Of a stretch of 64,000 nucleotides of DNA, positions 6,314 through 58,735 are shown piece by piece. Within the stretch, counting starts at the first letter, position 1, and each line of letters opens with the position of its first letter. The stretch is from Brachionus manjavacas (Eukaryota > Rotifera > Eurotatoria > Ploima > Brachionidae), in assembly GCA_019054805.1 (NCBI GenBank), contig JAHQIY010000007.1:5895501-5959500 (forward strand), given 5' to 3'. Position numbers and translations under genes: made by a program. The notes under the pieces are model-generated. The model did not search any database, was not told where the DNA came from, and saw only the letters and a program-made list of their open reading frames with translations.

Positions 6314-6440
6314 TGCCAACACACAACTTTCAACGGTTTTTAAATCACGTGATGACGCTATTTATTAAATTTTGGTTTTTCAAATTAGTTAAGCCAAACA
6401 ACAAATTTTCAAAATATCAAAGTTCAAAGTTAAAATCAAA

Positions 6441-9473: not shown

Positions 9474-11003
9474 TTAAAATAGGCAGCATTTCCATCCTGA
9501 AAGTTTGCCACTAGAATTAGCCTTCGATTTTCGTAATTTGGCAACTTCTTTTGGAGAAATGTCTTTAGTTGCATCATATTTTACTTTGGTTTCCTTGCTC
9601 TTAGTCCACGGCAATTTACTTTGACCACTCTTAATGTCACTAATCGTAAAAACCTTTATTTCCTTGTCTTCATCTTCGTCATCGCTGGAAATTAGTGATC
9701 GCTTAAATTCTTTTTGTTTGGATTTTTGATTTGATTTATTTTTGTCAGAGCTTTTAAAAGGTGCTTTGAAAACATTAATAATTCTATTAAAAACAGAAAA
9801 AAATCCATTTTCTTTCTTGCTTTTTGAGTTCTGCTTTGATTTTGTTTCATTGTTTTTTTGCCTGGGGGCTGAACGATCTGTTTCTGAAATATTTCTGAGG
9901 TGTTTTATTTCGTCTAGATTATCTCGAAATAGTAATTCATCGTCACTCTTATTTAAATTTTTTACTAGCTGAGCTCGACGTATTTCCGATGGTCTTTCAT
10001 GAGATCGTTGTTTGCATTCATCTGTTATTTTGATCTCGGTAGAATTTTCAATTTTTATAGTTTTTGCATCACTTTGATCGATAGGAATTGAGATATTCGG
10101 GGAGAAAATTGGTACCAAAGATTTTTGCTGCTGTTTACCATCTGTATTGTTACCAACAACTGGGTGAATATTAACTAAATTCTGAACAGAAAGTGGTTCT
10201 AATGGTTTGACAACATCATCTCTAAAAGGATTGTTCGAGGAAAATTTATAATAACTGGAATTTTCAGTCTGACCTTGTGAAGTTTGTAAATGTTCATAAA
10301 ATGGATTATTAAAACGAATGTATCTCGATTCAGATATCTTTTTCGATCGAGAATCATAAGAAATATTATTTAATTCGCGGGTTTTAAAGAGATTGAGACT
10401 ATAATTAGTAAATTCGTAATCGTTTGAAATAGATGGGTCTAAAGATGAAAAACGTTTGGAATCTGAAAATTCGTCATTGGTAGCAAAAGATTTGTCCATG
10501 TAATGTTCTTCATCACTAATAAAATCGGCTTCAATTGACAAAGGCCTCTTATTAACAATACTAATTTTAACCAATTGTAAAGGAAGCATATTTTTTTCAA
10601 GTTGTTGAGAATTAGATGAGGAAGATGATGAATAAACTTCAGGGCTAGTATTGGAAACTTTATGACAAGAAGAAAAATTAGAGGCACGCTGGCAATCAAT
10701 TAAAGAACTAAAAAATTCATTTTTAGATGAGAAATTAGAGATAGTCCCATCAAAGTCATAAGATTTTGACTGAAAAATATTTATATCGGAATTGTTAACT
10801 TGCTTGTTAACAAGAGAATCAACATCAAAATTCATTCGATCTGATAACTGATTCATGTGATTTTGATGTTTTAAAGATATAAAAGCTGGGTCACAAAATG
10901 GTTGGATATAAATTGGAATCTCATAATCAAGATTAACTTCTAAAAAGTCGTTGGTAAAAGATGATTTACAAGTGTTATAATGTGTATCAGCAAAATGTCT
11001 GTA
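9474..11003 (-). other. Unique C-terminal tail of the giant protein: NPF motifs and CCLF
   Basis: This is 509 residues of non-repetitive, Ser/Asn-rich sequence after the last repeat. It contains two NPF motifs in similar settings, NNPFYEHL (about 10290-10315) and NNPFRDDV (about 10212-10236); NPF is the ligand of EH domains in endocytic adaptors. Near the end is an amphipathic hydrophobic/basic stretch, GFFSVFNRIINVFKAPFK (about 9755-9810), then Lys-rich and SSDDEDED segments. The final residues are WKCCLF. CCLF matches CCaX-type prenylation motifs such as RalB CCLL and the brain Cdc42 form CCIF. Together these suggest membrane association. The motifs are seen; their use is inferred. Confidence 0.65.
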
Positions 11004-14000
11004 TTCTTCAGATGGTTCTTGTTTAGCTTCAACGATTGGAACCTCTTGCTTAACAGCGATTGATTCATCTTCTTTAATTTCTTGTGATTGTTCAGCAGGA
11101 GTCTCAATAACGCTTTCGACCGAAACTGGTTCTTTACTTTCTACAACACTAGTATCGACAATAAATTTATCGACCAACTTGTCAAATATTTCACTTGATT
11201 CGACTTTTTGTTCTTCGACTTGTAGTGGCTCTTCTTCGCTAGGAGATGGCTCAGTCTTGATGAACGAATCAATAATGTTGATAAATTTATCGATTGAAGC
11301 TTGGTCTGGTTGTTCGACAACAGTTTGTTCAATCGAAGCTTGCTTATCTTCTTCAGATGGTTCTTGTTTAGCTTCAACGATTGGAACCTCTTGCTTAACA
11401 GCGATTGATTCATCTTCTTTAATTTCTTGTGATTGTTCAGCAGGAGTCTCAATAACGCTTTCGACCGAAACTGGTTCTTTACTTTCTACAACACTAGTAT
11501 CGACAATAAATTTATCGACCAACTTGTCAAATATTTCACTTGATTCGACTTTTTGTTCTTCGACTTGTAGTAGCTCTTCTTCGCTAGGAGATGGCTCAGT
11601 CTTGATGAACGAATCAATAATGTTGATAAATTTATCGATTGAAGCTTGGTCTGGTTGTTCGACAACAGTTTGTTCAATCGAAGCTTGCTTATCTTCTTCA
11701 GATGGTTCTTGTTTAGCTTCAACGATTGGAACCTCTTGCTTAACAGCGATTGATTCATCTTCTTTAATTTCTTGTGATTGTTCAGCAGGAGTCTCAATAA
11801 CGCTTTCGACCGAAACTGGTTCTTTACTTTCTACAACACTAGTATCGACAATAAATTTATCGACCAACTTGTCAAATATTTCACTTGATTCGACTTTTTG
11901 TTCTTCGACTTGTACTGGCTCTTCTTCGCTAGAAGATGGCTCAGTCTTGATGAACGAATCAATAATGTTGATAAATTTATCGATTGAAGCTTGGTCTGGT
12001 TGTTCGACAACAGTTTGTTCAATCGAAGCTTGCTTATCTTCTTCAGATGGTTCTTGTTTAGCTTCAACGATTGGAACCTCTTGCTTAACAGCGATTGATT
12101 CATCTTCTTTAATTTCTTGTGATTGTTCAGCAGGAGTCTCAATAACGCTTTCGACCGAAACTGGTTCTTTACTTTCTACAACACTAGTATCGACAATAAA
12201 TTTATCGACCAACTTGTCAAATATTTCACTTGATTCGACTTTTTGTTCTTCGACTTGTACTGGCTCTTCTTCGCTAGAAGATGGCTCAGTCTTGATGAAC
12301 GAATCAATAATGTTGATAAATTTATCGATTGAAGCTTGGTCTGGTTGTTCGACAACAGTTTGTTCAATCGAAGCTTGCTTATCTTCTTCAGATGGTTCTT
12401 GTTTAGCTTCAACGATTGGAACCTCTTGCTTAACAGCGATTGATTCATCTTCTTTAATTTCTTGTGATTGTTCAGCAGGAGTCTCAATAACGCTTTCGAC
12501 CGAAACTGGTTCTTTACTTTCTACAACACTAGTATCGACAATAAATTTATCGACCAACTTGTCAAATATTTCACTTGATTCGACTTTTTGTTCTTCGACT
12601 TGTAGTGGCTCTTCTTCGCTAGGAGATGGCTCAGTCTTGATGAACGAATCAATAATGTTGATAAATTTATCGATTGAAGCTTGGTCTGGTTTTTCGACAA
12701 CAGTTTGTTCAATCGAAGCTTGCTTATCTTCTTCAGATGGTTCTTGTTTAGCTTCAACGATTGGAACCTCTTGCTTAACAGCGATTGATTCATCTTCTTT
12801 AATTTCTTGTGATTGTTCAGCAGGAGTCTCAATAACGCTTTCGACCGAAACTGGTTCTTTACTTTCTACAACACTAGTATCGACAATAAATTTATCGACC
12901 AACTTGTCAAATATTTCACTTGATTCGACTTTTTGTTCTTCGACTTGTAGTGGCTCTTCTTCGCTAGGAGATGGCTCAGTCTTGATGAACGAATCAATAA
13001 TGTTGATAAATTTATCGATTGAAGCTTGGTCTGGTTTTTCGACAACAGTTTGTTCAATCGAAGCTTGCTTATCTTCTTCAGATGGTTCTTGTTTAGCTTC
13101 AACGATTGGAACCTCTTGCTTAACAGCGATTGATTCATCTTCTTTAATTTCTTGTGATTGTTCAGCAGGAGTCTCAATAACGCTTTCGACCGAAACTGGT
13201 TCTTTACTTTCTACAACACTAGTATCGACAATAAATTTATCGACCAACTTGTCAAATATTTCACTTGATTCGACTTTTTGTTCTTCGACTTGTAGTGGCT
13301 CTTCTTCGCTAGGAGATGGCTCAGTCTTGATGAACGAATCAATAATGTTGATAAATTTATCGATTGAAGCTTGGTCTGGTTTTTCGACAACAGTTTGTTC
13401 AATCGAAGCTTGCTTATCTTCTTCAGATGGTTCTTGTTTAGCTTCAACGATTGGAACCTCTTGCTTAACAGCGATTGATTCATCTTCTTTAATTTCTTGT
13501 GATTGTTCAGCAGGAGTCTCAATAACGCTTTCGACCGAAACTGGTTCTTTACTTTCTACAACACTAGTATCGACAATAAATTTATCGACCAACTTGTCAA
13601 ATATTTCACTTGATTCGACTTTTTGTTCTTCGACTTGTAGTGGCTCTTCTTCGCTAGGAGATGGCTCAGTCTTGATGAACGAATCAATAATGTTGATAAA
13701 TTTATCGATTGAAGCTTGGTCTGGTTGTTCGACAACAGTTTGTTCAATCGAAGCTTGCTTATCTTCTTCAGATGGTTCTTGTTTAGCTTCAACGATTGGA
13801 ACCTCTTGCTTAACAGCGATTGATTCATCTTCTTTAATTTCTTGTGATTGTTCAGCAGGAGTCTCCATAACGCTTTCGACCGAAACTGGTTCTTTACTTT
13901 CTACAACACTAGTATCGACAATAAATTTATCGACCAACTTGTCAAATATTTCACTTGATTCGACTTTTTGTTCTTCGACTTGTAGTGGCTCTTCTTCGCT

Positions 14001-17000
14001 AGGAGATGGCTCAGTCTTGATGAACGAATCAATAATGTTGATAAATTTATCGATTGAAGCTTGGTCTGGTTGTTCGACAACAGTTTGTTCAATCGAAGCT
14101 TGCTTATCTTCTTCAGATGGTTCTTGTTTAGCTTCAACGATTGGAACCTCTTGCTTAACAGCGATTGATTCATCTTCTTTAATTTCTTGTGATTGTTCAG
14201 CAGGAGTCTCCATAACGCTTTCGACCGAAACTGGTTCTTTACTTTCTACAACACTAGTATCGACAATAAATTTATCGACCAACTTGTCAAATATTTCACT
14301 TGATTCGACTTTTTGTTCTTCGACTTGTAGTGGCTCTTCTTCGCTAGGAGATGGCTCAGTCTTGATGAACGAATCAATAATGTTGATAAATTTATCGATT
14401 GAAGCTTGGTCTGGTTGTTCGACAACAGTTTGTTCAATCGAAGCTTGCTTATCTTCTTCAGATGGTTCTTGTTTAGCTTCAACGATTGGAACCTCTTGCT
14501 TAACAGCGATTGATTCATCTTCTTTAATTTCTTGTGATTGTTCAGCAGGAGTCTCAATAACGCTTTCGACCGAAACTGGTTCTTTACTTTCTACAACACT
14601 AGTATCGACAATAAATTTATCGACCAACTTGTCAAATATTTCACTTGATTCGACTTTTTGTTCTTCGACTTGTAGTGGCTCTTCTTCGCTAGGAGATGGC
14701 TCAGTCTTGATGAACGAATCAATAATGTTGATAAATTTATCGATTGAAGCTTGGTCTGGTTGTTCGACAACAGTTTGTTCAATCGAAGCTTGCTTATCTT
14801 CTTCAGATGGTTCTTGTTTAGCTTCAACGATTGGAACCTCTTGCTTAACAGCGATTGATTCATCTTCTTTAATTTCTTGTGATTGTTCAGCAGGAGTCTC
14901 AATAACGCTTTCGACCGAAACTGGTTCTTTACTTTCTACAACACTAGTATCGACAATAAATTTATCGACCAACTTGTCAAATATTTCACTTGATTCGACT
15001 TTTTGTTCTTCGACTTGTAGTGGCTCTTCTTCGCTAGGAGATGGCTCAGTCTTGATGAACGAATCAATAATGTTGATAAATTTATCGATTGAAGCTTGGT
15101 CTGGTTTTTCGACAACAGTTTGTTCAATCGAAGCTTGCTTATCTTCTTCAGATGGTTCTTGTTTAGCTTCAACGATTGGAACCTCTTGCTTAACAGCGAT
15201 TGATTCATCTTCTTTAATTTCTTGTGATTGTTCAGCAGGAGTCTCAATAACGCTTTCGACCGAAACTGGTTCTTTACTTTCTACAACACTAGTATCGACA
15301 ATAAATTTATCGACCAACTTGTCAAATATTTCACTTGATTCGACTTTTTGTTCTTCGACTTGTAGTGGCTCTTCTTCGCTAGGAGATGGCTCAGTCTTGA
15401 TGAACGAATCAATAATGTTGATAAATTTATCGATTGAAGCTTGGTCTGGTTTTTTCGACAACAGTTTGTTCAATCGAAGCTTGCTTATCTTCTTCAGATG
15501 GTTCTTGTTTAGCTTCAACGATTGGAACCTCTTGCTTAACAGCGATTGATTCATCTTCTTTAATTTCTTGTGATTGTTCAGCAGGAGTCTCAATAACGCT
15601 TTCGACCGAAACTGGTTCTTTACTTTCTACAACACTAGTATCGACAATAAATTTATCGACCAACTTGTCAAATATTTCACTTGATTCGACTTTTTGTTCT
15701 TCGACTTGTAGTGGCTCTTCTTCGCTAGAGATGGCTCAGTCTTGATGAACGAATCAATAATGTTGATAAATTTATCGATTGAAGCTTGGTCTGGTTTTTC
15801 GACAACAGTTTGTTCAATCGAAGCTTGCTTATCTTCTTCAGATGGTTCTTGTTTAGCTTCAACGATTGGAACCTCTTGCTTAACAGCGATTGATTCATCT
15901 TCTTTAATTTCTTGTGATTGTTCAGCAGGAGTCTCCATAACGCTTTCGACCGAAACTGGTTCTTTACTTTCTACAACACTAGTATCGACAATAAATTTAT
16001 CGACCAACTTGTCAAATATTTCACTTGATTCGACTTTTTGTTCTTCGACTTGTACTGGCTCTTCTTCGCTAGGAGATGGCTCAGTCTTGATGAACGAATC
16101 AATAATGTTGATAAATTTATCGATTGAAGCTTGGTCTGGTTGTTCGACAACAGTTTGTTCAATCGAAGCTTGCTTATCTTCTTCAGATGGTTCTTGTTTA
16201 GCTTCAACGATTGGAACCTCTTGCTTAACAGCGATTGATTCATCTTCTTTAATTTCTTGTGATTGTTCAGCAGGAGTCTCCATAACGCTTTCGACCGAAA
16301 CTGGTTCTTTACTTTCTACAACACTAGTATCGACAATAAATTTATCGACCAACTTGTCAAATATTTCACTTGATTCGACTTTTTGTTCTTCGACTTGTAG
16401 TGGCTCTTCTTCGCTAGGAGATGGCTCAGTCTTGATGAACGAATCAATAATGTTGATAAATTTATCGATTGAAGCTTGGTCTGGTTGTTCGACAACAGTT
16501 TGTTCAATCGAAGCTTGCTTATCTTCTTCAGATGGTTCTTGTTTAGCTTCAACGATTGGAACCTCTTGCTTAACAGCGATTGATTCATCTTCTTTAATTT
16601 CTTGTGATTGTTCAGCAGGAGTCTCCATAACGCTTTCGACCGAAACTGGTTCTTTACTTTCTACAACACTAGTATCGACAATAAATTTATCGACCAACTT
16701 GTCAAATATTTCACTTGATTCGACTTTTTGTTCTTCGACTTGTAGTGGCTCTTCTTCGCTAGGAGATGGCTCAGTCTTGATGAACGAATCAATAATGTTG
16801 ATAAATTTATCGATTGAAGCTTGGTCTGGTTTTTCGACAACAGTTTGTTCAATCGAAGCTTGCTTATCTTCTTCAGATGGTTCTTGTTTAGCTTCAACGA
16901 TTGGAACCTCTTGCTTAACAGCGATTGATTCATCTTCTTTAATTTCTTGTGATTGTTCAGCAGGAGTCTCCATAACGCTTTCGACCGAAACTGGTTCTTT

Positions 17001-20000: not shown

Positions 20001-23000
20001 AACGATTGGAACCTCTTGCTTAACAGCGATTGATTCATCTTCTTTAATTTCTTGTGATTGTTCAGCAGGAGTCTCAATAACGCTTTCGACCGAAACTGGT
20101 TCTTTACTTTCTACAACACTAGTATCGACAATAAATTTATCGACCAACTTGTCAAATATTTCACTTGATTCGACTTTTTGTTCTTCGACTTGTAGTGGCT
20201 CTTCTTCGCTAGGAGATGGCTCAGTCTTGATGAACGAATCAATAATGTTGATAAATTTATCGATTGAAGCTTGGTCTGGTTTTTCGACAACAGTTTGTTC
20301 AATCGAAGCTTGCTTATCTTCTTCAGATGGTTCTTGTTTAGCTTCAACGATTGGAACCTCTTGCTTAACAGCGATTGATTCATCTTCTTTAATTTCTTGT
20401 GATTGTTCAACAGGAGAAAGTCTCCATAACGCTTTCGACCGAAACTGGTTCTTTACTTTCTACAACACTAGTATCGACAATAAATTTATCGACCAACTTG
20501 TCAAATATTTCACTTGATTCGACTTTTTGTTCTTCGACTTGTACTGGCTCTTCTTCGCTAGGAGATGGCTCAGTCTTGATGAACGAATCAATAATGTTGA
20601 TAAATTTATCGATTGAAGCTTGGTCTGGTTTTTCGACAACAGTTTGTTCAATCGAAGCTTGCTTATCTTCTTCAGATGGTTCTTGTTTAGCTTCAACGAT
20701 TGGAACCTCTTGCTTAACAGCGATTGATTCATCTTCTTTAATTTCTTGTGATTGTTCAGCAGGAGTCTCCATAACGCTTTCGACCGAAACTGGTTCTTTA
20801 CTTTCTACAACACTAGTATCGACAATAAATTTATCGACCAACTTGTCAAATATTTCACTTGATTCGACTTTTTGTTCTTCGACTTGTACTGGCTCTTCTT
20901 CGCTAGGAGATGGCTCAGTCTTGATGAACGAATCAATAATGTTGATAAATTTATCGATTGAAGCTTGGTCTGGTTTTTCGACAACAGTTTGTTCAATCGA
21001 AGCTTGCTTATCTTCTTCAGATGGTTCTTGTTTAGCTTCAACGATTGGAACCTCTTGCTTAACAGCGATTGATTCATCTTCTTTAATTTCTTGTGATTGT
21101 TCAGCAGGAGTCTCCATAACGCTTTCGACCGAAACTGGTTCTTTACTTTCTACAACACTAGTATCGACAATAAATTTATCGACCAACTTGTCAAATATTT
21201 CACTTGATTCGACTTTTTGTTCTTCGACTTGTACTGGCTCTTCTTCGCTAGGAGATGGCTCAGTCTTGATGAACGAATCAATAATGTTGATAAATTTATC
21301 GATTGAAGCTTGGTCTGGTTTTTCGACAACAGTTTGTTCAATCGAAGCTTGCTTATCTTCTTCAGATGGTTCTTGTTTAGCTTCAACGATTGGAACCTCT
21401 TGCTTAACAGCGATTGATTCATCTTCTTTAATTTCTTGTGATTGTTCAGCAGGAGTCTCAATAACGCTTTCGACCGAAACTGGTTCTTTACTTTCTACAA
21501 CACTAGTATCGACAATAAATTTATCGACCAACTTGTCAAATATTTCACTTGATTCGACTTTTTGTTCTTCGACTTGTACTGGCTCTTCTTCGCTAGGAGA
21601 TGGCTCAGTCTTGATGAACGAATCAATAATGTTGATAAATTTATCGATTGAAGCTTGGTCTGGTTTTTCGACAACAGTTTGTTCAATCGAAGCTTGCTTA
21701 TCTTCTTCAGATGGTTCTTGTTTAGCTTCAACGATTGGAACCTCTTGCTTAACAGCGATTGATTCATCTTCTTTAATTTCTTGTGATTGTTCAGCAGGAG
21801 TCTCAATAACGCTTTCGACCGAAACTGGTTCTTTACTTTCTACAACACTAGTATCGACAATAAATTTATCGACCAACTTGTCAAATATTTCACTTGATTC
21901 GACTTTTTGTTCTTCGACTTGTACTGGCTCTTCTTCGCTAGGAGATGGCTCAGTCTTGATGAACGAATCAATAATGTTGATAAATTTATCGATTGAAGCT
22001 TGGTCTGGTTTTTCGACAACAGTTTGTTCAATCGAAGCTTGCTTATCTTCTTCAGATGGTTCTTGTTTAGCTTCAACGATTGGAACCTCTTGCTTAACAG
22101 CGTTTGATTCATCTTCTTTAATTTCTTGTGATTGTTCAGCAGGATTCTCAATAACGCTTTCGACAGAAACTGGTTCTTTACTTTCTACAACACAAGTATC
22201 GACAATAAATTTATCGACCAACTTGTCAAATATTTCACTTGATTCGACTTTTTGTTCTTCGACTTGTACTGGCTCTTCTTCGCTAGGAGATGGCTCAGTC
22301 TTGATGAACGAATCAATAATGTTGATAAATTTATCGATTGAAGCTTGGTCTGGTTTTTCGACAACAGTTTGTTCAATCGAAGCTTGCTTATCTTCTTCAG
22401 ATGGTTCTTGTTTAGCTTCAACGATTGGAACCTCTTGCTTAACAGCGATTGATTCATCTTCTTTAATTTCTTGTGATTGTTCAGCAGGAGTCTCAATAAC
22501 GCTTTCGACCGAAACTGGTTCTTTACTTTCTACAACACTAGTATCGACAATAAATTTATCGACCAACTTGTCAAATATTTCACTTGATTCGACTTTTTGT
22601 TCTTCGACTTGTACTGGCTCTTCTTCGCTAGGAGATGGCTCAGTCTTGATGAACGAATCAATAATGTTGATAAATTTATCGATTGAAGCTTGGTCTGGTT
22701 GTTCGACTACAGTTTGTTCAATCGAAGCTTGCTTATCTTCTTCAGATGGTTCTTGTTTAGCTTCAACGATTGGAACCTCTTGCTTAACAGCGATTGATTC
22801 ATCTTCTTTAATTTCTTGTGATTGTTCAGCAGGATTCTCAATAACGCTTTCGACCGAAACTGGTTCTTTACTTTCTACAACACTAGTATCGACAATAAAT
22901 TTATCGACCAACTTGTCAAATATTTCACTTGATTCGACTTTTTGTTCTTCGACTTGTACTGGCTCTTCTTCGCTAGGAGATGGCTCAGTCTTGATGAACG

Positions 23001-26000
23001 AATCAATAATGTTGATAAATTTATCGATTGAAGCTTGGTCTGGTTGTTCGACTACAGTTTGTTCAATCGAAGCTTGCTTATCTTCTTCAGATGGTTCTTG
23101 TTTAGCTTCAACGATTGGAACCTCTTGCTTAACAGCGATTGATTCATCTTCTTTAATTTCTTGTGATTGTTCAGCAGGAGTCTCAATAACGCTTTCGACC
23201 GAAACTGGTTCTTTACTTTCTACAACACTAGTATCGACAATAAATTTATCGACCAACTTGTCAAATATTTCACTTGATTCGACTTTTTGTTCTTCGACTT
23301 GTACTGGCTCTTCTTCGCTAGGAGATGACTCAGTCTTGATGAACGAATCAATAATGTTGATAAATTTATCGATTGAAGCTCGGTCTGGTTTTTCGACAAC
23401 AGTTTGTTCAATCGAAGCTTGCTTATCTTCTTCAGATGGTTCTTGTTTAGCTTCAACGATTGGAACCTCTTGCTTAACAGCGATTGATTCATCTTCTTTA
23501 ATTTCTTGTGATTGTTCAGCAGGAGTCTCAATAACGCTTTCGACCGAAACTGGTTCTTTACTTTCTACAACACTAGTATCGACAATAAATTTATCGACCA
23601 ACTTGTCAAATATTTCACTTGATTCGACTTTTTGTTCTTCGACTTGTACTGGCTCTTCTTCGCTAGGAGATGGCTCAGTCTTGATGAACGAATCAATAAT
23701 GTTGATAAATTTATCGATTGAAGCTTGGTCTGGTTTTTCGACAACAGTTTGTTCAATCGAAGCTTGCTTATCTTCTTCAGATGGTTCTTGTTTAGCTTCA
23801 ACGATTGGAACCTCTTGCTTAACAGCGATTGATTCATCTTCTTTAATTTCTTGTGATTGTTCAGCAGGAGTCTCAATAACGCTTTCTGACCGAAACTGGT
23901 TCTTTACTTTCTACAACACTAGTATCGACAATAAATTTATCGACCAACTTGTCAAATATTTCACTTGATTCGACTTTTTGTTCTTCGACTTGTACTGGCT
24001 CTTCTTCGCTAGGAGATGGCTCAGTCTTGATGAACGAATCAATAATGTTGATAAATTTATCGATTGAAGCTTGGTCTGGTTTTTCGACAACAGTTTGTTC
24101 AATCGAAGCTTGCTTATCTTCTTCAGATGGTTCTTGTTTAGCTTCAACGATTGGAACCTCTTGCTTAACAGCGATTGATTCATCTTCTTTAATTTCTTGT
24201 GATTGTTCAGCAGGAGTCTCAATAACGCTTTCGACCGAAACTGGTTCTTTACTTTCTACAACACTAGTATCGACAATAAATTTATCGACCAACTTGTCAA
24301 ATATTTCACTTGATTCGACTTTTTGTTCTTCGACTTGTACTGGCTCTTCTTCGCTAGGAGATGACTCAGTCTTGATGAACGAATCAATAATGTTGATAAA
24401 TTTATCGATTGAAGCTGGGTCTGGTTGTTCGACTACAATTTGTTCAATCGAAGCTTGCTTATCTTCTTCAGATGGTTCTTGTTTAGCTTCAACGATTGGA
24501 ACCTCTTGCTTAACAGCGATTGATTCATCTTCTTTAATTTCTTGTGATTGTTCAGCAGGAGTCTCAATAACGCTTTCGACCGAAACTGGTTCTTTACTTT
24601 CTACAACACTAGTATCGACAATAAATTTATCGACCAACTTGTCAAATATTTCACTTGATTCGACTTTTTGTTCTTCGACTTGTACTGGCTCTTCTTCGCT
24701 AGGAGATGGCTCAGTCTTGATGAACGAATCAATAATGTTGATAAATTTATCGATTGAAGCTTGGTCTGGTTGTTCGACTACAGTTTGTTCAATCGAAGCT
24801 TGCTTATCTTCTTCAGATGGTTCTTGTTTAGCTTCAACGATTGGAACCTCTTGCTTAACAGCGATTGATTCATCTTCTTTAATTTCTTGTGATTGTTCAG
24901 CAGGAGTCTCAATAACGCTTTCGACCGAAACTGGTTCTTTACTTTCTACAACACTAGTATCGACAATAAATTTATCGACCAACTTGTCAAATATTTCACT
25001 TGATTCGACTTTTTGTTCTTCGACTTGTACTGGCTCTTCTTCGCTAGGAGATGGCTCAGTCTTGATGAACGAATCAATAATATTGATAAATTTATCGATT
25101 GAAGCTTGGTCTGGTTGTTCGACTACAGTTTGTTCAATCGAAGCTTGCTTATCTTCTTCAGATGGTTCTTGTTTAGCTTCAACGATTGGAACCTCTTGCT
25201 TAACAGCGATTGATTCATCTTCTTTAATTTCTTGTGATTGTTCAGCAGGAGTCTCAATAACGCTTTCGACCGAAACTGGTTCTTTACTTTCTACAACACT
25301 AGTATCGACAATAAATTTATCGACCAACTTGTCAAATATTTCACTTGATTCGACTTTTTGTTCTTCGACTTGTACTGGCTCTTCTTCGCTAGGAGATGGC
25401 TCAGTCTTGATGAACGAATCAATAATGTTGATAAATTTATCGATTGAAGCTTGGTCTGGTTTTTCGACAACAGTTTGTTCAATCGAAGCTTGCTTATCTT
25501 CTTCAGATGGTTCTTGTTTAGCTTCAACGATTGGAACCTCTTGCTTAACAGCGATTGATTCATCTTCTTTAATTTCTTGTGATTGTTCAGCAGGAGTCTC
25601 AATAACGCTTTCGACCGAAACTGGTTCTTTACTTTCTACAACACTAGTATCGACAATAAATTTATCGACCAACTTGTCAAATATTTCACTTGATTCGACT
25701 TTTTGTTCTTCGACTTGTACTGGCTCTTCTTCGCTAGGAGATGGCTCAGTCTTGATGAACGAATCAATAATGTTGATAAATTTATCGATTGAAGCTTGGT
25801 CTGGTTGTTCGACTACAGTTTGTTCAATCGAAGCTTGCTTATCTTCTTCAGATGGTTCTTGTTTAGCTTCAACGATTGGATTCTCTTGCTTAACAGCGAT
25901 TGATTCATCTTCTTTAATTTCTTGTGATTGTTCAGCAGGAGTCTCAATAACGCATTCGACCGAAACTGGTTCTTTACTTTCTACAACACTAGTATCGACA

Positions 26001-29000
26001 ATAAATTTATCGACCAACTTGTCAAATATTTCACTTGATTCGACTTTTTGTTCTTCGACTTGTACTGGCTCTTCTTCGCTAGGAGATGACTCAGTCTTGA
26101 TGAACGAATCAATAATGTTGATAAATTTATCGATTGAAGCTTGGTCTGGTTGTTCGACTACATTTTTTTCAATCGAAGCTTGCTTATCTTCTTCAGATGG
26201 TTCTTGTTTAGCTTCAACGATTGGAACCTCTTGCTTAACAGCGATTGATTCATCTTCTTTAATTTCTTGTGATTGTTCAGCAGGAGTCTCAATAACGCTT
26301 TCGACCGAAACTGGTTCTTTACTTTCTACAACACTAGTATCGACAATAAATTTATCGACCAACTTGTCAAATATTTCACTTGATTCGACTTTTTGTTCTT
26401 CGACTTGTACTGGCTCTTCTTCGCTAGGAGATGGCTCAGTCTTGATGAACGAATCAATAATGTTGATAAATTTATCGATTGAAGCTTGGTCTGGTTTTTC
26501 GACAACAGTTTGTTCAATCGAAGCTTGCTTATCTTCTTCAGATGGTTCTTGTTTAGCTTCAACGATTGGAACCTCTTGCTTAACAGCGATTGATTCATCT
26601 TCTTTAATTTCTTGTGATTGTTCAGCAGGATTCTCAATAACGCTTTCGACCGAAACTGGTTCTTTACTTTCTACAACACTAGTATCGACAATAAATTTAT
26701 CGACCAACTTGTCAAATATTTCACTTGATTCGACTTTTTGTTCTTCGACTTGTACTGGCTCTTCTTCGCTAGGAGATGGCTCAGTCTTGATGAACGAATC
26801 AATAATATTGATAAATTTATCGATTGAAGCTTGGTCTGGTTGTTCGACTACAGTTTGTTCAATCGAAGCTTGCTTATCTTCTTCAGATGGTTCTTGTTTA
26901 GCTTCAACGATTGGAACCTCTTGCTTAACAGCGATTGATTCATCTTCTTTAATTTCTTGTGATTGTTCAGCAGGAGTCTCAATAACGCTTTCGACCGAAA
27001 CTGGTTCTTTACTTTCTACAACACTAGTATCGACAATAAATTTATCGACCAACTTGTCAAATATTTCACTTGATTCGACTTTTTGTTCTTCGACTTGTAG
27101 TGGCTCTTCTTCGCTAGGAGATGGCTCAGTCTTGATGAACGAATCAATAATGTTGATAAATTTATCGATTGAAGCTTGGTCTGGTTGTTCGACAACAGTT
27201 TGTTCAATCGAAGCTTGCTTATCTTCTTCAGATGGTTCTTGTTTAGCTTCAACGATTGGAACCTCTTGCTTAACAGCGATTGATTCATCTTCTTTAATTT
27301 CTTGTGATTGTTCAGCAGGATTCTCAATAACGCTTTCGACCGAAACTGGTTCTTTACTTTCTACAACACTAGTATCGACAATAAATTTATCGACCAACTT
27401 GTCAAATATTTCACTTGATTCGACTTTTTGTTCTTCGACTTGTAGTGGCTCTTCTTCGCTAGGAGATGGCTCAGTCTTGATGAACGAATCAATAATGTTG
27501 ATAAATTTATCGATTGAAGCTTGGTCTGGTTGTTCGACAACAGTTTGTTCAATCGAAGCTTGCTTATCTTCTTCAGATGGTTCTTGTTTAGCTTCAACGA
27601 TTGGAACCTCTTGCTTAACAGCGATTGCTTCATCTTCTTTAATTTCTTGTGATTGTTCAGCAGGAGTCTCAATAACGCTTTCGACCGAAACTGGTTCTTT
27701 ACTTTCTACAACACTAGTATCGACAATAAATTTATCGACCAACTTGTCAAATATTTCACTTGATTCGACTTTTTGTTCTTCGACTTGTACTGGCTCTTCT
27801 TCGCTACGAGATGGCTCAGTCTTGATGAACGAATCAATAATGTTGATAAATTTATCGATTGAAGCTTGGTCTGGTTGTTCGACTACAGTTTGTTCAATCG
27901 AAGCTTGCTTATCTTCTTCAGATGGTTCTTGTTTAGCTTCAACGATTAGAACCTCTTGCTTAACAGCGATTGATTCATCTTCTTTAATTTCTTGTGATTG
28001 TTCAGCAGGAGTCTCAATAACGCTTTCGACCGAAACTGGTTCTTTACTTTCTACAACACTAGTATCGACAATAAATTTATCGACCAACTTGTCAAATATT
28101 TCACTTGATTCGACTTTTTGTTCTTCGACTTGTAAAGGCTCTTCTTCGCTAGGAGATGGCTCAGTCTTGATGAACGAATCAATAATGTTGATAAATTTAC
28201 CGATTGAAGCTTGGCCTGGTTGTTCGACAACAGTTTGTTCAATCGAAGCTTGCTTATCTTCTTCAGATGGTTCTTGTTTAGCTTCAACGATTGGAACCTC
28301 TTGCTTAACAGCGATTGATTCATCTTCTTTAATTTCTTGTGATTGTTCAGCAGGAGTCTCAATAACGCTTTCGACCGAAACTGGTTCTTTACTTTCTACA
28401 ACACTAGTATCGACAATAAATTTATCGACCAACTTGTCAAATATTTCACTTGATTCGACTTTTTGTTCTTCGACTTGTAGTGGCTCTTCTTCGCTAGGAG
28501 ATGGCTCAGTCTTGATGAACGAATCAATAATGTTGATAAATTTATCGATTGAAGCTTGGTCTGGTTGTTCGACAACAGTTTGTTCAAACGAAGCTTGCTT
28601 ATCTTCTTCAGATGGTTCTTGATTAGCTTCAACGATTGGAACCTCTTGCTTAACAGCGATTGATTCATCTTCTTTAATTTCTTTTGATTGTTCAGCAGGA
28701 GTCTCAATAACGCTTTCGACCGAAACTGGTTCTTTACTTTCTACAACACTAGTATCGACAATAAATTTATCGACCAACTTGTCAAATATTTCACTTGATT
28801 CGACTTTTTGTTCTTCGACTTGTAGTGGCTCTTCTTCGCTAGGAGATGGCTCAGTCTTGATGAACGAATCTATAATGTTGATAAATTTATCGATTGAAGC
28901 TTGGTCTGGTTGTTCGACAACAGTTTGTTCAATCGAAGCTTGCTTATCTTCTTCAGATGGTTCTTGTTTAGCTTCAACGATTGGAACCTCTTGCTTAACA

Positions 29001-32000
29001 GCGATTGATTCATCTTCTTTAATTTCCTGTGATTGTTCAGCAGGAGTCTCAATAACGCTTTCGACCGAAACTGGTTCTTTACTTTCTACAACACTAGTAT
29101 CGACGATAAATTTATCGACCAACTTGTCAAATATTTCACTTGATTCGACTTTTTGTTCTTCGACTTGTAGTGGCTCTTCTTCGCTAGGAGATGGCTCAGT
29201 CTTGATGAACGAATCAATAATGTTGATAAATTTATCGATTGAAGCTTGGTCTGGTTGTTCGACAACAGTTTGTTCAATCGAAGCTTGCTTATCTTCTTCA
29301 GATGGTTCTTGTTTAGCTTCAACGATTGGAACCTCTTGCTTAACAGCGATTGATTCATCTTCTTTAATTTCTTGTGATTGTTCAGCAGGAGTCTCAATAA
29401 CGCTTTCGAACGAAACTGGTTCTTTACTTTCTACAACACTAGTATCGACAATATATTTATCGACCAACTTGTCAAATATTTCACTTGATTCGACTTTTTG
29501 TTTTTCGACTTGTACTGGCTCTTCTCCGCTAGGAGATGGCTCAGTCTTGATGAACGAATCAATAATGTTGATAAATTTATCGATTGAAGCTTGGTCTGGT
29601 TGTTCGACAACAGTTTGTTCAATCGAAGCTTGCTTATTTTCTTCAGATGGTTCTTGTTTAGCTTCAACGATTGGAACCTCTTGCTTAACAGCGATTGATT
29701 CATCTTCTTTAATTTCTTGTGATTGTTCAGCAGGAGTCTCAATAACGCTTTCGACCGAAACTGGTTCTTTACTTTCTACAACACTAGTATCGACAATAAA
29801 TTTATCGACCAACTTGTCAAATATTTCACTTGATTCGACTTTTTGCTCTTCGACTTGTACTGGCTCTTCTCCGCTAGGAGATGGCTCAGTCTTGATGAAC
29901 GAATCAATAATGTTGATAAATTTATCGATTGAAGCTTGGTCTGGTTGTTCGACAACAGTTTGTTCAATCGAAGCTTGCTTATTTTCTTCAGATGGTTCTT
30001 GTTTAGCTTCAACGATTGGAACCTCTTGCTTAACAGCGATTGATTCATCTTCTTTAATTTCTTGTGATTGTTCAGCAGGAGTCTCAATAACGCTTTCGAC
30101 CGAAACTGGTTCTTTACTTTCTACAACACTAGTATCGACAATAAATTTATCGACCAACTTGTCAAATATTTCACTTGATTCGACTTTTTGCTCTTCGACT
30201 TGTACTGGCTCTTCTCCGCTAGGAGATGGCTCAGTCTTGATGAACGAATCAATAATGTTGATAAATTTATCGATTGAAGCTTGGTCTGGTTGTTCGACAA
30301 CAGTTTGTTCAATCGAAGCTTGCTTATCTTCTTCAGATGGTTCTTGTTTAGCTTCAACGATTGGAACCTCTTGCTTAACAGCGATTGATTCATCTTCTTT
30401 AATTTCTTGTGATTGTTCAGCAGGAGTCTCAATAACGCTTTCGACCGAAACTGGTTCTTTACTTTCTACAACACTAGTATCGACAATAAATTTATCGACC
30501 AACTTGTCAAATATTTCACTTGATTCGACTTTTTGTTCTTCGACTTGTAGTGGCTCTTCTTCGCTAGGAGATGGCTCAGTCTTGATGAACGAATCAATAA
30601 TGTTGATAAATTTATCGATTGAAGCTTGGTCTGGTTGTTCGACAACAGTTTGTTCAATCGAAGCTTGCTTATCTTCTTCAGATGGTTCTTGTTTAGCTTC
30701 AACGATTGGAACCTCTTGCTTAACAGCGATTGATTCATCTTCTTTAATTTCTTGTGATTGTTCAGCAGGAGTCTCCAATAACGCTTTCGACCGAAACTGG
30801 TTCTTTACTTTCTACAACACTAGTATCGACAATAAATTTATCGACCAACTTGTCAAATATTTCACTTGATTCGACTTTTTGTTCATCGACTTGTAGAGGC
30901 TCTTCTTCGCTAGGAGATGGCTCAGTCTTGATGAACGAATCAATAATGTTGATAAAGTTATCGATTGAAGCTTGGTCTGGTTGTTCGACAACAGTTTGTT
31001 CAATCGAAGCTTGCTTATCTTCTTCAGATGGTTCTTGTTTAGCTTCAACGATTGGAACCTCTTGCTTAACAGCGATTGATTCATCTTCTTTAATTTCTTG
31101 TGATTGTTCAGCAGGAGTCTCAATAACGCTTTCGACCGAAACTGGTTCTTTACTTTCTACAACACTAGTATCGACAATAAATTTATCGACCAACTTGTCA
31201 AATATTTCACTTGATTCGACTTTTTGTTCTTCGACTTGTACTGGCCCTTCTCCGCTAGGAGATGGCTCAGTCTTGATGAACGAATCAATAATGTTGATAA
31301 ATTTATCGATTGAAGCTTGGTCTGGTTGTTCGACAACAGTTTGTTCAATCGAAGCTTGCTTATCTTCTTCAGATGGTTCTTGTTTAGCTTCAACGATTGG
31401 AACCTCTTGCTTAACAGCGATTGATTCATCTTCTTTAATTTCTTGTGATTGTTCAGCAGGAGTCTCAATAACGCTTTCGACCGAAACTGGTTCTTTACTT
31501 TCTACAACACTAGTATCGACAATAAATTTATCGACCAACTTGTCAAATATTTCACTTGATTCGACTTTCTGTTCATCGACTTGTAGAGGCTCTTCTTCGC
31601 TAGGAGATGGCTCAGTCTTGATGAACGAATCAATAATGTTGATAAAGTTATCGATTGAAGCTTGGTCTGGTTGTTCGACAACAGTTTGTTCAATCGAAGC
31701 TTGCTTATCTTCTTCAGATGGTTCTTGTTTAGCTTCAACGATTGGAACCTCTTGCTTAACAGCGATTGATTCATCTTCTTTAATTTCTTGTGATTGTTCA
31801 GCAGGAGTCTCAATAACGCTTTCGACCGAAACTGGTTCTTTACTTTCTACAACACTAGTATCGACAATAAATTTATCGACCAACTTGTCAAATATTTCAC
31901 TTGATTCGACTTTTTGTTCTTCGACTTGTAGTGGCTCTTCTTCGCTAGGAGATGGCTCAATCTTGATGAACGAATCAATAATGTTGATAAATTTATCGAT

Positions 32001-38000: not shown

Positions 38001-41000
38001 TGATTGTTCAGCAGGAGTCTCAATAACGCTTTCGACCGAAACTGGTTCTTTACTTTCTACAACACTAGTATCGACAATAAATTTATCGACCAACTTGTCA
38101 AATATTTCACTTGATTCGACTTTTTGTTCTTCGACTTGTACTGGCTCTTCTTCGCTAGGAGATGGCTCAGTCTTGATGAACGAATCAATAATGTTGATAA
38201 ATTTATCGATTGAAGCTTGGTCTGGTTGTTCGACTACAGTTTGTTCAATCGAAGCTTGCTTATCTTCTTCAGATGGTTCTTGTTTAGCTTCAACGATTGG
38301 AACCTCTTGCTTAACAGCGATTGATTCATCTTCTTTTATTTCTTGTGTTTGTTCAGCAGGAGTCTCAATAACGCTTTCGACCGAAACTGGTTCTTTACTT
38401 TCTACAACACTAGTATCGACAATATATTTATCGACCAACTTGTCAAATATTTCACTTGATTCGACTTTTTGTTCATCGACTTGTAGTGGCTTTTCTTCGC
38501 TAGGAGATGGCTCAGTCTTGATGAACGAATCAATAATGTTGATAAATTTATCGATTGAAGCTTGGTCTGGTTGTTCGACAACAGTTTGTTCAATCGAAGC
38601 TTGCTTATCTTCTTCAGATGGTTCTTGTTTAGCTTCAACGATTGGAACCTCTTGCTTAACAGCGATTGATTCATCTTCTTTAATTTCTTGTGATTGTTCA
38701 GCAGGAGTCTCAATAACGCTTTCGACCGAAACTGGTTCTTTACTTTCTACAACACTAGTATCGACAATAAATTTATCGACCAACTTGTCAAATATTTCAC
38801 TTGATTCGACTTTTTGTTCTTCGACTTGTAGTGGCTCTTCTTCGCTAGGAGATGGCTCAGTCTTGATGAACGAATCAATAATGTTGATAAATTTATCGAT
38901 TGAAGCTTGGTCTGGTTGTTCGACAACAGTTTGTTCAATCGAAGCTTGCTTATCTTCTTCAGATGGTTCTTGTTTAGCTTCAACGATTGGAACCTCTTGC
39001 TTTACAGCGATTGATTCATCTTCTTTAATTTCTTGTGATTGTTCAGCAGGAGTCTCAATAACGCTTTCGACCGAAACTGGTTCTTTACTTTCTACAACAC
39101 TAGTATCGACAATATATTTATCGACCAACTTGTCAAATATTTCACTTGATTCGACTTTTTGTTCTTCGACTTGTAGTGGCTCTTCTTCGCTAGGAGATGG
39201 CTCAGTCTTGATGAACGAATCAATAATGTTGATAAATTTATCGATTGAAGCTTGGTCTGGTTGTTCGACAACAGTTTGTTCAATCGAAGCTTGCTTATCT
39301 TCTTCAGATGGTTCTTGTTTAGCTTCAACGATTGGAACCTCTTGCTTTACAGCGATTGATTCATCTTCTTTAATTTCTTGTGATTGTTCAGCAGGAGTCT
39401 CAATAACGCTTTCGACCGAAACTGGTTCTTTACTTTCTACAACACTAGTATCGACAATATATTTATCGACCAACTTGTCAAATATTTCACTTGATTCGAC
39501 TTTTTGTTCTTCGACTTGTAGTGGCTCTTCTTCGCTAGGAGATGGCTCAGTCTTGATGAACGAATCAATAATGTTGATAAATTTATCGATTGAAGCTTGG
39601 TCTGGTTGTTCGACAACAGTTTGTTCAATCGAAGCTTGCTTATCTTCTTCAGATGGTTCTTGTTTAGCTTCAACGATTGGAACCTCTTGCTTAACAGCGA
39701 TTGATTCATCTTCTTTAATTTCTTGTGATTGTTCAGCAGGAGTCTCAATAACGCTTTCGACCGAAACTGGTTCTTTACTTTCTACAACACTAGTATCGAC
39801 AATAAATTTATCGACCAACTTGTCAAATATTTCACTTGATTCGACTTTTTGTTCTTCGACTTGTACTGGCTCTTCTCCGCTAGGAGATGGCTCAGTCTTG
39901 ATGAACGAATCAATAATGTTGATAAATTTATCGATTGAAGCTTGGTCTGGTTGTTCGACAACAGTTTGTTCAATCGAAGCTTGCTTATCTTCTTCAGATG
40001 GTTCTTGTTTAGCTTCAACGATTGGAACCTCTTGCTTAACAGCGATTGATTCATCTTCTTTAATTTCTTGTGATTGTTCAGCAGGAGTCTCAATAACGCT
40101 TTCGACCGAAACTGGTTCTTTACTTTCTACAACACTAGTATCGACAATAAATTTATCGACCAACTTGTCAAATATTTCACTTGATTCGACTATTTGTTCT
40201 TCGACTTGTAGTGGCTCTTCTCCGCTAGGAGATGGCTCAGTCTTGATGAACGAATCAATAATGTTGATAAATTTATCGATTGAAGCTTGGTCTGGTTGTT
40301 CGACAACAGTTTGTTCAATCGAAGCTTGCTTATCTTCTTCAGATGGTTCTTGTTTAGCTTCAACGATTGGAACATCTTGCTTAACAGCGATTGATTCATC
40401 TTCTTTAATTTCTTGTGATTGTTCAGCAGGAGTCTCAATAACGCTTTCGACCGAAACTGGTTCTTTACTTTCTACAACACTAGTATCGACAATATATTTA
40501 TCGACCAACTTGTCAAATATTTCACTTGATTCGACTATTTGTTCTTCGACTTGTAGTGGCTCTTCTCCGCTAGGAGATGGCTCAGTCTTGATGAACGAAT
40601 CAATAATGTTGATAAATTTATCGATTGAAGCTTGGTCTGGTTGTTCGACAACAGTTTGTTCAATCGAAGCTTGCTTATCTTCTTCAGATGGTTCTTGTTT
40701 AGCTTCAACGATTGGAACATCTTGCTTAACAGCGATTGATTCATCTTCTTTAATTTCTTGTGATTGTTCAGCAGGAGTCTCAATAACGCTTTCGACCGAA
40801 ACTGGTTCTTTACTTTCTACAACACTAGTATCGACAATAAATTTATCGACCAACTTGTCAAATATTTCACTTGATTCGACTTTTTGTTCTTCGACTTGTA
40901 GTTGCTCTTCTTCGCTAAGAGATGGCTCAGTCTTGATGAACGAATCAATAATGTTGATAAATTTATCGATTGAAGCTTGGTCTGGTTGTTCGACTACATT

Positions 41001-42109
41001 TTGTTCAATCGAAGCTTGCTTATCATCTTCAGATGGTTCTTGTTTAGCTTCAACGATTGGAACCTCTTGCTTAACAGCGATTGATTCATCTTCTTTTATT
41101 TCTTGTGATTGTTCAGCAGGAGTCTCAATAACGCTTTCGACCGAAACTGGTTCTTTACTTTCTACAACACTAGTATCGACAATAAATTTATCGACCAACT
41201 TGTCAAATATTTCACTTGATTCGACTTTTTGTTCTTCGACTTGTAGTTGCTCTTCTTCGCTAAGAGATGTCTCAGTCTTGATGAACGAATCAATAATGTT
41301 GATAAATTTATCGATTGAAGCTTGGTCTGGTTGTTCGACTACATTTTGTTCAATCGAAGCTTGCTTATCATCTTCAGATGGTTCTTGTTTAGCTTCAACG
41401 ATTGGAACCTCTTGCTTAACAGCGATTGATTCATCTTCTTTTATTTCTTGTGATTGTTCAGCAGGAGTCTCAATAACGCTTTCGACCGAAACTGGTTCTT
41501 TACTTTCTACAACACTAGTATCGACAATATATTTATCGACCAACTTGTCAAATATTTCACTTGATTCGACTTTTTGTTCATCGACTTGTAGTGGCTCTTC
41601 TTCGCTAGGAGATGTCTCAGTCTTGATGAACGAATCAATAATGTTGATAAATTTATCGATTGAAGCTTGGTCTGGTTGTTCGACAACAGTTTGTTCAATC
41701 GAAGCTTGCTTATCTTCTTCAGATGGTTCTTGTTTAGCTTCAACGATTGGAACATCTTGCTTAACAGCGATTGATTCATCTTCTTTAATTTCTTGTGATT
41801 GTTCAGCAGGAGTCTCAATAACGCTTTCGACCAAAACTGGTTCTTTACTTTCTACAACACTAGTATCGACAATAAATTTATCGACCAACTTGTCAAATAT
41901 TTCACTTGATTCGACTTTTTGTTCCTTTACTATTTTTTCTTTTTTTCTTGTGTCTTTATATTTTTCCGTTTCTTCGTACACCTTAATTTTATTTATTGTT
42001 CTTAATTCGATATTTTTTAGTTGATTTTCAACAACATTTATTTCGATTTCCTTGTTTTCATCATCTTTGTCATATTTTTCTTCTTGTCTTTGCATTTCAT
42101 TTGTGTTTT
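9474..42109 (-). CDS. Giant 115-aa tandem-repeat protein with CaaX C-terminus, main exon
   Basis: The minus-strand frame opens at ATG 42095 (in-frame stop at 42113-42111) or, if spliced to the exons at 44-47 kb, at an acceptor (AG at 42111-42110). It ends TAA at 9474. From the ATG there are 57 Lys/Glu-rich residues, 89.6 copies of a 115-residue unit (11004-41924) and a unique 509-residue tail, together 10,871 residues if the small indels are errors. The unit has no Cys, Gly, His, Arg, Trp or Tyr in its consensus. It carries about 31 acidic and 10 Lys residues (net about -21) and is probably mostly disordered, with two short amphipathic stretches, IFDKLVDKFIVD and SIDKFINIIDSFIK. The frame is broken at about 15450, 15728, 20417, 23887 and 30775, and intact between. 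No known family is recognised. A membrane-tethered scaffold is my inference. Confidence 0.75.
15450..15728 (-). other. Paired compensating 1-bp lesions in the array
   Basis: A run of six T at 15450-15455 replaces the usual five (+1). At 15727-15729 the usual AGGAG has become AGAG (-1). Between them the minus-strand frame is shifted and meets a stop at 15627. Both are typical homopolymer or dinucleotide-level errors, though real mutations cannot be excluded. Confidence 0.85.
20410..20420 (-). other. 4-bp insertion in the array
   Basis: AAAG is inserted at about 20417-20420 relative to every other unit, with a nearby G to A change at 20410 that turns PAEQ into PVEQ. This is the only lesion longer than one base and the one that looks most like a genuine mutation. 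It shifts the frame by +1. Confidence 0.8.
23886..23888 (-). other. 1-bp insertion in the array
   Basis: The usual GCTTTCGACC reads GCTTTCTGACC, an extra T at about 23887, shifting the coding frame. Confidence 0.85.
30771..30780 (-). other. 1-bp insertion in the array at a known variant site
   Basis: The sequence GTCTCCAATAACG combines the two common variants GTCTCAATAACG (Ile codon) and GTCTCCATAACG (Met codon) and is one base too long. A consensus built from mixed repeat copies would produce exactly this. Confidence 0.8.
35987..37700 (-). repeat. 690-bp higher-order repeat within the array
   Basis: Successive units alternate between two types. One has DKY with EQSQ, QPDQ and EEEPLQ. The other has DKF with EQTQ, QQDQ and EEKPLQ or EEKLLQ. 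At DNA level the CTTGCTTTAC variant recurs at 36581 and 37271, exactly 690 bp apart. About two and a half dimers are visible, so a two-unit block was duplicated as a whole. Confidence 0.7.
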
Positions 42110-44049: not shown

Positions 44050-44538
44050 CGTTTTGAATTTCACACGATTCCGGCTGATTGTAATTATTGAAATTGATTT
44101 TTTGGGCATAACCTTTATTCATCTCGATGTTAAATGATTCCGTAAGCTTACAATCCAAATTTTCTGTGGAAGCCAAGTGCTGACTAGTGTCGAGCAGAGA
44201 ATTTCGAGTCCTTTCTGACTTGGTGTGCGCGAGAGGCAAATTAGTTTTTTTTATGATAAACAATTCATAATTATCATGGCTTGGAACGTCACTGGAATCG
44301 CTCAAATTAAACACTTGTGCACCACTCCTCTCAGTCAATTCATTAGCTGCACTGCCCGAGGAAGCACTTCGGCCCAATCGATTCTCAATTAGTTGTTTAT
44401 CATCCATTTGCTTGTTTGTTTGCCTTGCTGTTTGCATAGCCTTGTTTATTACTGACTTAACTAGATTGATGGCAGCTTCTTTTACAATTTCATCACTGCT
44501 TGGTGCAGTATTTTTATCATCAGAAAAATTCTCCTCGG
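44050..44538 (-). CDS. Exon 2 of AKAP-like gene, RII-binding helix
   Basis: A minus-strand exon bounded by TTTTGTTTTAG and CAAAACG/GTAAGC. It joins the 44701-46930 exon across a 162-nt intron (44539-44700, GTAGGT..TTTTAG) in phase: A plus CC makes Thr 744. It encodes 162 further codons. Residues about 760-777 of the joined protein read EIVKEAAINLVKSVINKA, an amphipathic helix. Its hydrophobic positions (I, V, A, A, L, V, V, I, A) match the classic AKAP RII-binding helix, for example the Ht31 pattern LIEEAASRIVDAVIEQV. Such helices dock the dimerisation domain of PKA regulatory subunits. The rest is polar and low complexity. It ends one base into a codon, so at least one more exon must follow. 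Confidence 0.6.
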
Positions 44539-58044: not shown

Positions 58045-58735
58045 AATAATAACAATAATGTAAGCTATTATGTATTCCCGTTCTCGGAAGTATATGGAAT
58101 GTGAGACACGCATTATGACAGCTCTTTGCTAATATATTGCTCTAAGCAATTCCAGCTTAATCTTGTCCAACTTGTTCTTGAACTAATTTACAGTTTTAGA
58201 GTGAATCATTTCTTTATCATTTCCAAATTTTGATTCGCTTTGTTGGTCAAAAAATTAAGTCTTCTTCTGTGCATCATGGCTAAAGATGCATTCCATTCAT
58301 TCAATATAAATTTTTTATTGAATGAATATATTGTACAACTTTTTAATCTTTTTAATCTTTCTGGTCTTGATTTTCCCACTTTAAATCATTAGATATAACA
58401 ATATCTAGATCACACTCAATACTGGTCTCTTCTAGTTCATGTATTCGATTGACTCCATGACCAAGATTTATCCCTTTCTTCTTTCCAAAATGCATTAACT
58501 CAAATTAATGATTCAAAATTAGCGTTAGAGCTCATTAACCACTTGAAAGAATAATTATCGAAAGAATCTATATCACTCTGAAGTTTTTGAGTTCTGACGT
58601 CATTGTTAACTTTTGCCAAAATCTTAGTTTCATCAGCAGAGAGTAAACACTTGTTCCTTATACCATCTGGCATATCATTTATTTAGACCACAAACAGGAT
58701 AGGGTCTAGAACCGATCCTTGCGCTACATCATTGT
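58045..58735 (-). mobile_element. 5'-truncated decayed LINE (RT motifs B-C to 3' end)
   Basis: On the minus strand the fragment begins within motif B (GSVLDPILFVV, about 58690-58725). It continues INDMPDGIRNKCLLSADETK, in which the catalytic YADD has decayed to SADE, then LQSDIDSF..KWLMS. It becomes broken and ends with FKNKLDKIKLELL (about 58150-58195) and a 3' untranslated part homologous to 52165-52262, with an AATAATAACAATAAT-type tail at 58045-58059. It is a typical dead, 5'-truncated insertion. The stretch near 58257-58279 shares 23 exact bases with 57083-57105, suggesting a mosaic of two LINE families. Confidence 0.65.

Follow-up and report, generated by a model that had tools for sequence, protein, structure and literature searches.

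A predicted giant gene of the rotifer Brachionus manjavacas with a coding array of about 90 near-identical 115-residue units and two conserved helix motifs per unit

A tandem array of a 345-bp unit in the genome of Brachionus manjavacas is real and is coding on its minus strand. What is new here is that each 115-aa unit carries two conserved, predicted amphipathic helices that are spared amino acid replacement. The array was analyzed within a window of 64,000 nucleotides (the whole stretch of DNA under study; contig C7, positions 5895501-5959500), and similarity searches covered the 114-Mb genome, assembled in 61 contigs. From its sequence, we read the gene, with moderate confidence, as encoding a giant membrane-tethered cytoplasmic scaffold with repeated docking helices and an anchor for PKA.

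11004-41924, minus strand: array of the 345-bp/115-aa unit, 89.6 units (TRF and anchoring on a common 15-mer)

The ~31 kb of 345-bp periodicity claimed in the original prediction was borne out. TRF reported 89.6 copies with 98% matches, and anchoring on one common 15-mer counted 90 units, of which 84 are exactly 345 nt long, five contain one indel each, and the final one is partial (210 nt). Among the 84 full units, 52 versions can be told apart at the DNA level and 47 at the protein level. Similarity between units declines with distance along the array (a mean of 3.6 differing sites between neighboring units, ~5 between units 20 to 40 apart), and variants are distributed across it as a mosaic. 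This pattern is expected from unequal crossing-over and counts against an assembler loop. Block means of the difference from the consensus drop from 3.3 to about 1 toward the 3' end of the gene, and this greater uniformity suggests a recent expansion there. We found no second locus for the array in the genome; among the best candidates scored, the best off-locus matches had E values of 0.12 and 8.7. Relic units were sought in ~5 kb of upstream and 3 kb of downstream flank, where only short word matches turned up (best E value, 0.04).

All 84 full units are free of stops in the unit frame on the minus strand, as had been claimed, but that claim was silent on the plus strand, which is also open over the array in seven ORFs of 748-2741 aa (10981-42024). 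With long open stretches on both strands, openness by itself decides nothing. Codon log-odds trained on 14 ORFs elsewhere in this genome gave +0.32 bits/codon for the minus unit frame (3335 codons), +0.17 and -0.18 for the remaining minus frames, and -0.06 to -0.13 for the plus strand. Coding on the plus strand, open as it is, was rejected on these scores. Its reading is interrupted twice by TGA away from any indel (at 28622 and 33798), and one of the 64 distinct single-base variants of the array makes a stop in its open frame. In the minus frame, the same 64 variants are 51 nonsynonymous and 13 synonymous changes with no stops, against 4.9 stops expected (P 0.006; P 0.03 under a uniform spectrum). 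The coding strand is the minus strand. Gene finders may nevertheless call the antisense ORFs at 10981-42024 (+), although codon use speaks against their coding.

The gene model that we propose around the array consists of three exons, all on the minus strand.

44701-46930, minus strand: predicted exon A, with ATG, a lysine-rich basic N-terminal region, 743 codons plus one base, and phase-1 donor GTAGGT (open frame, codon score, in-frame splice join)
44050-44538, minus strand: predicted exon B, with acceptor TTTTAG and donor GTAAGC after a G, both ends in phase 1 (codon log-odds +0.21, splice phase)
9474-42109, minus strand: giant exon C, from acceptor ATTAAG before AA to the stop codon (ORFs, splice join)

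Exon C starts with 62 unique aa and ends at a stop after a unique tail of 509 aa, so the in-frame unique N- and C-terminal segments announced in the original prediction are present. Its description as a single exon applies to the array, which sits in one exon; the gene itself probably has the two further 5' exons predicted here. Exon A scored +0.26 bits/codon, compared with at most 0.09 in the other five frames, and an in-frame stop precedes its ATG. A search of the genome with exon A at E values up to 1 returned only the self-match, and no second copy of exon B was found there (other matches, E 0.17 and 1.8). The exon C acceptor is weak. All A/B/C junctions are in phase 1 and read through, but the splice sites were picked by eye for matching phase, and the joins are therefore predictions. 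We predict a single-copy gene in which a giant 3' exon follows two ordinary 5' ones, a model that shares the moderate confidence of the whole scaffold reading. Its product would run from a basic stretch of 906 residues through a 62-residue linker and the array to a basic tail of 509 residues, for a total of ~11,780 aa and 1.32 MDa with a net charge of about -1860 (calculated with consensus units).

That no family had been recognized agrees with the Pfam searches, in which no model reached the cut-off in exons A and B, the opening 370 aa of exon C, the tail, or the unit. Matches below the cut-off were dismissed, namely Sp-DndD for exon A (E 0.003), Acyl-CoA_dh_2 for exon B (E 0.0085), PIP49_N for the unit (E 0.025), and weaker ones. 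Among solved structures, none matched the unit, and one weak match (TFIID subunit 13, E 0.065) covered a 57-aa piece of exon B. No relative was found in phages with one 1001-base array stretch as the query, and none of 57 candidate viral contigs was related. A single hit among 87 bacterial and archaeal candidates was set aside as, by eye, a PEP-utilising enzyme sharing KQEPSEED. A narrow search of titles and abstract openings in the literature found no description of such a gene.

Composition gives the unit the character of a disordered polyanion, with a charged fraction of 0.36, a net charge of -0.18 per residue, and P, E, V, and K making up 48% of residues; the strong acidity and compositional disorder in the original prediction are thus supported. 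The predicted absence of Cys, Gly, Arg, His, Trp, and Tyr holds for the consensus unit, but 28 of the 84 full units contain at least one of these residues. Two short segments of the unit stand out from this background.

41865-41906, minus strand: helix motif 1 in unit 1, SEIFDKLVDKFIVD, unit aa 7-20, recurring along the array (pattern, hydrophobic moment, variants)
41622-41666, minus strand: helix motif 2 in unit 1, ASIDKFINIIDSFIK, unit aa 87-101, recurring along the array (pattern, hydrophobic moment, variants)

All four Phe residues of the consensus unit lie inside these motifs, whose cores, FDKLVDKFI and FINIIDSFI, share the form F-x-x-(L/I)-(V/I)-x-x-F-I; two such motifs arise in 33 of 20000 shuffles of the unit. 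Motif 1 is exact in 71 of the 84 full units, the other 13 having Phe17 replaced by Tyr, and motif 2 is exact in 77. The 29 helix codons contain four nonsynonymous and three synonymous variants (omega 0.31), whereas the acidic linkers that form the rest of the unit contain 47 and 10, respectively (omega 1.37). Only 2 of 10005 random window pairs were equally poor in replacements, a figure that is optimistic because the helix boundaries were drawn after the variant list had been seen; such pairs made up a fraction of 0.022 when the boundaries were narrowed and 0.027 when they were widened, and with the widest ones, omega was 0.79, compared with 1.2 in the linkers. At the 13 hydrophobic helix positions, the only replacement is F to Y (P 0.011). 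Motif 2 has a hydrophobic moment (0.54) barely above the 95th percentile of shuffled-unit maxima (0.51), and motif 1 (0.42) falls below it, so that amphipathicity alone is weak evidence. Pattern, moment, and variant distribution together predict two amphipathic helices per unit. When one half of the unit was compared with the other for possible homology, 92 of 1000 shuffles scored as well.

Since the helices are spared amino acid change and the linkers are not, we read the array as a series of conserved docking helices joined by free spacers. Most simply, the helices would do the work and the linkers would space them. The array could instead be an entropic bristle or elastic spacer that supplies length and negative charge only, in the manner of neurofilament side arms, MAP1/Futsch repeats, or titin PEVK, with the helices incidental. 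The charge and P+E+V+K content given above and the freedom of the linkers to change amino acids fit such a chain, as does the account in PMC2821913 of fly and bee Futsch, which have different tandem repeats between conserved ends. This explanation does not account for two helix regions that are spared replacements and contain every Phe of the consensus unit, and we consider it possible but rather unlikely. We give somewhat less credence still to self-association, in which the helices would pair across units or chains into a sticker-and-spacer gel or filament without an outside partner. The Ile/Phe helices, with their 3-4 spacing, occur twice in each unit of a chain that is hydrophilic elsewhere, which would suit it, but at ~12-14 residues they are short for this purpose, and their strongly acidic surroundings would oppose pairing.

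The docking reading draws further on a candidate PKA-anchoring helix outside the array.

44438-44485, minus strand: AKAP-type helix VKEAAINLVKSVINKA, aa 762-777 of the predicted protein, in exon B (consensus match)

PKA-anchoring helices follow the consensus LxxxAxxIVxxAIxxA (PMC3682517), with which the exon B helix agrees apart from conservative substitutions at positions 1, 8, and 12. A regular expression that allowed conservative alternatives matched once in the 1478 unique aa. AKAP-type helices are degenerate, and 84 of 20000 shuffles matched too, so that the single match could be due to chance. Potential partners are encoded in the same genome. On contig C6, a PKA RII-type gene has a docking domain (at 3566982) as well as two stretches that bind cyclic nucleotides, and another docking exon (at 5019359) is RI-like by eye. 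The predicted scaffold would probably anchor PKA via the exon B helix. Homology between this helix and the repeat helices was not significant (1881 of 3000 shuffles were as good). In hydrophobic spacing, the repeat helices are similar to those of AKAPs, but they have Phe where the consensus has Ala (positions 5 and 12), and the strict pattern had no matches in two consensus units. Docking of PKA by the array is for that reason only a minor reading, and we consider it improbable that both repeat helices themselves bind PKA R-subunit dimers or a related docking/dimerization-domain protein. If they did, one membrane-tethered molecule could align well over 100 kinase dimers and so form a polyvalent PKA cable that would far exceed any AKAP known to us.

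A product of more than 1 MDa hinges on the nature of five small indels, since the minus frame taken literally is broken into five stop-bounded ORFs (3782, 2312, 1167, 1610, and 2050 aa). As assembled, the frame of exon C closes at 30762.

30539-30884, minus strand: unit 33, first single-copy indel (15-mer-anchored unit lengths)
23638-23983, minus strand: indel in unit 53 (15-mer-anchored unit lengths)
20184-20532, minus strand: indel in unit 63 (15-mer-anchored unit lengths)
15700-16043, minus strand: indel in unit 76 (15-mer-anchored unit lengths)
15354-15699, minus strand: indel in unit 77 (15-mer-anchored unit lengths)

Four of the indels are of 1 nt and one is of 4 nt, and the net of +6 nt confirms the earlier count. 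They are probably errors of the assembly, since short reads are unable to polish such a region. If they were real, the gene would encode a shorter protein (906 plus ~3780 aa) or be decaying, with the other units as a relic, and a change of homopolymer length does not describe at least two of them, those in units 53 and 63. However, all five are confined to single units, whereas 32 of the 64 substitutions are common to several units (Fisher P 0.039). Past the first break, units 34-90 have no stop in 39 distinct variants (P 0.046), and the tail past the last break stays open for 509 aa. Real frame breaks are therefore very unlikely. A noncoding satellite that is open by chance, for which the near-identity of the 345-bp units and the long open stretches on the plus strand might speak, is scarcely credible in view of the codon use, the lack of stops, the constraint on two motifs, the unique open flanks in frame, the single locus, and the two TGA codons outside indels in the plus reading, and this upholds the original view of one gene and not a satellite.

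Several features were noted in the C-terminal region downstream of the array.

9477-11003, minus strand: unique basic C-terminal tail, 509 aa (open frame)
10299-10307 and 10224-10232, minus strand: two NPF tripeptides in the tail (sequence)
9753-9806, minus strand: amphipathic helix GFFSVFNRIINVFKAPFK in lysine-rich context, of putative membrane-binding type (hydrophobic moment 0.66; type inferred)
9477-9488, minus strand: C-terminal CCLF, which fits a CaaX box (last residues before the stop)

NPF binds EH domains, and F as the X of a CaaX box directs geranylgeranylation. The C-terminus appears lipid-anchored. The codon score of the tail is only +0.13 (next-best frame, +0.08), and no second copy of the tail was found in the genome (best other match, E 0.17). 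Another tail motif, FNRIINVF, was unremarkable (793 of 5000 shuffles).

Other loci in the window include an uninterrupted 532-aa pogo/Tigger-like transposase frame at 60235-61830 (-), with DDE_1 and a Tc5-type HTH, which possibly belongs to a recently active element. A decayed non-LTR retroelement at 2402-6361 (-) has a reverse transcriptase, an endonuclease piece just under the Pfam cut-off, and an ORF1 piece that is CCHC-like by eye with no Pfam match. Fragments resembling reverse transcriptase by eye lie at 58500-58682 (-) and 63096-63494 (+), and an 11-bp minisatellite, TTCCTTTCCTC, occupies 1940-2061 (11 copies, 99% matches by TRF). Among other genes seen, we take a SPRY-domain exon to be part of a ryanodine receptor, and a kinase has a PKK domain, presumably as in SLK; together with the PKA R subunits, these are genes of an animal type. 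A candidate rotifer spliced-leader sequence and an 18S core each had 0 matches. The arthropod cuticle family PF00379 and nematode cuticle collagen PF01484 likewise had 0, but their controls were silent too, so these two zeros do not prove absence. Contig C21 (1,221,242 bases) contains a cyoABC-like quinol-oxidase run (COX1 family by Pfam, its neighbors by eye; 34% GC nearby) and is probably the genome of a bacterial symbiont or contaminant, its size being typical of intracellular bacteria.

According to the scaffold reading, the basic N-terminal region would present one PKA-anchoring helix. The center would be a polyanionic chain of ~90 units, each with two short amphipathic helices (~179 in total) separated by freely evolving acidic linkers, and these helices may serve as docking or association sites for many copies of a second partner. 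The basic C-terminus would grip the membrane via its amphipathic helix and a prenylated CaaX cysteine. The protein would thus form a long flexible cable, with a contour of ~3.7 µm, that keeps PKA and the partner near the membrane, while unequal crossing-over would homogenize the units and set their number. Of the elastic or scaffold-type polymer envisaged originally, the scaffold is favored; a simple spring or featureless chain is disfavored by the conserved helices, the basic tails, the AKAP-type helix, and the lipid-anchor-like C-terminus.

If transcribed as predicted, the gene would rank, by comparisons familiar to us, among those with the largest animal proteins and coding exons. Its highly uniform units would also document clearly which parts of a giant disordered chain selection preserves, chiefly two short helices per 115 residues. 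The scaffold, if it exists as read, would be a rare case of binding sites multiplied by unequal crossing-over, and copy number differing between individuals could tune its length.

The original prediction called such uniform giant coding arrays rare, which is fair, although giant-exon repeat arrays are known from AHNAK and AHNAK2, and Futsch has tandem repeats too. As outlined in PMC10682155, AHNAK and AHNAK2 combine a giant exon with small exons, have central repeats of ~128 aa and 24 x 165 aa, respectively, between unique ends, and have the cell membrane as one of their locations. The rotifer gene shares with them the giant exon and repeats of more than 100 aa between unique ends. Unlike AHNAK, it is about twice as long, its units are ~98% identical and acidic with helix motifs, and it has a CaaX-like end; the PDZ domain at the AHNAK N-terminus had no Pfam match in exons A and B, the tail, or the opening 370 aa of exon C. 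Futsch repeats vary by species, with 66 repeats of ~37 aa in the fly and ~50 of 42 aa plus 25 of 18 aa in the bee, as given in PMC2821913. Long tandem repeats between unique ends are common to Futsch/MAP1B and the gene described here, which differs from Futsch in its 115-aa unit and CaaX-like end. Pfam includes MAP1 models, and the conserved MAP1 N- and C-terminal regions had no match at cut-off in the parts scanned.

Titin PEVK is a disordered chain rich in P, E, V, and K, whereas these residues reach only 48% here, and Pfam detected no Ig or Fn3 domains in exon A, exon B, or the tail; exons beyond the window may exist. A-kinase anchoring proteins, such as AKAP13/Ht31, AKAP2, and those of the MAP2 type, are matched by the exon B helix, which fits the consensus. 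The gene differs from them in that no other AKAP domain was found and the array helices are off the strict pattern. Paralemmin has a CaaX lipid anchor and occurs in vertebrates as a fusion with an RII-binding protein (PALM2-AKAP2), and its invertebrate form was found in lancelet only, according to the excerpted text of PMC3405040, which mentions no long array. The CaaX-type end and putative RII-binding helix are features that paralemmin and PALM2-AKAP2 have in common with the predicted rotifer protein. With a build shared with AHNAK and Futsch and, in the parts scanned, no match to the defining domains of either, the gene is better placed as a variant of a known architecture than as a member of either family.
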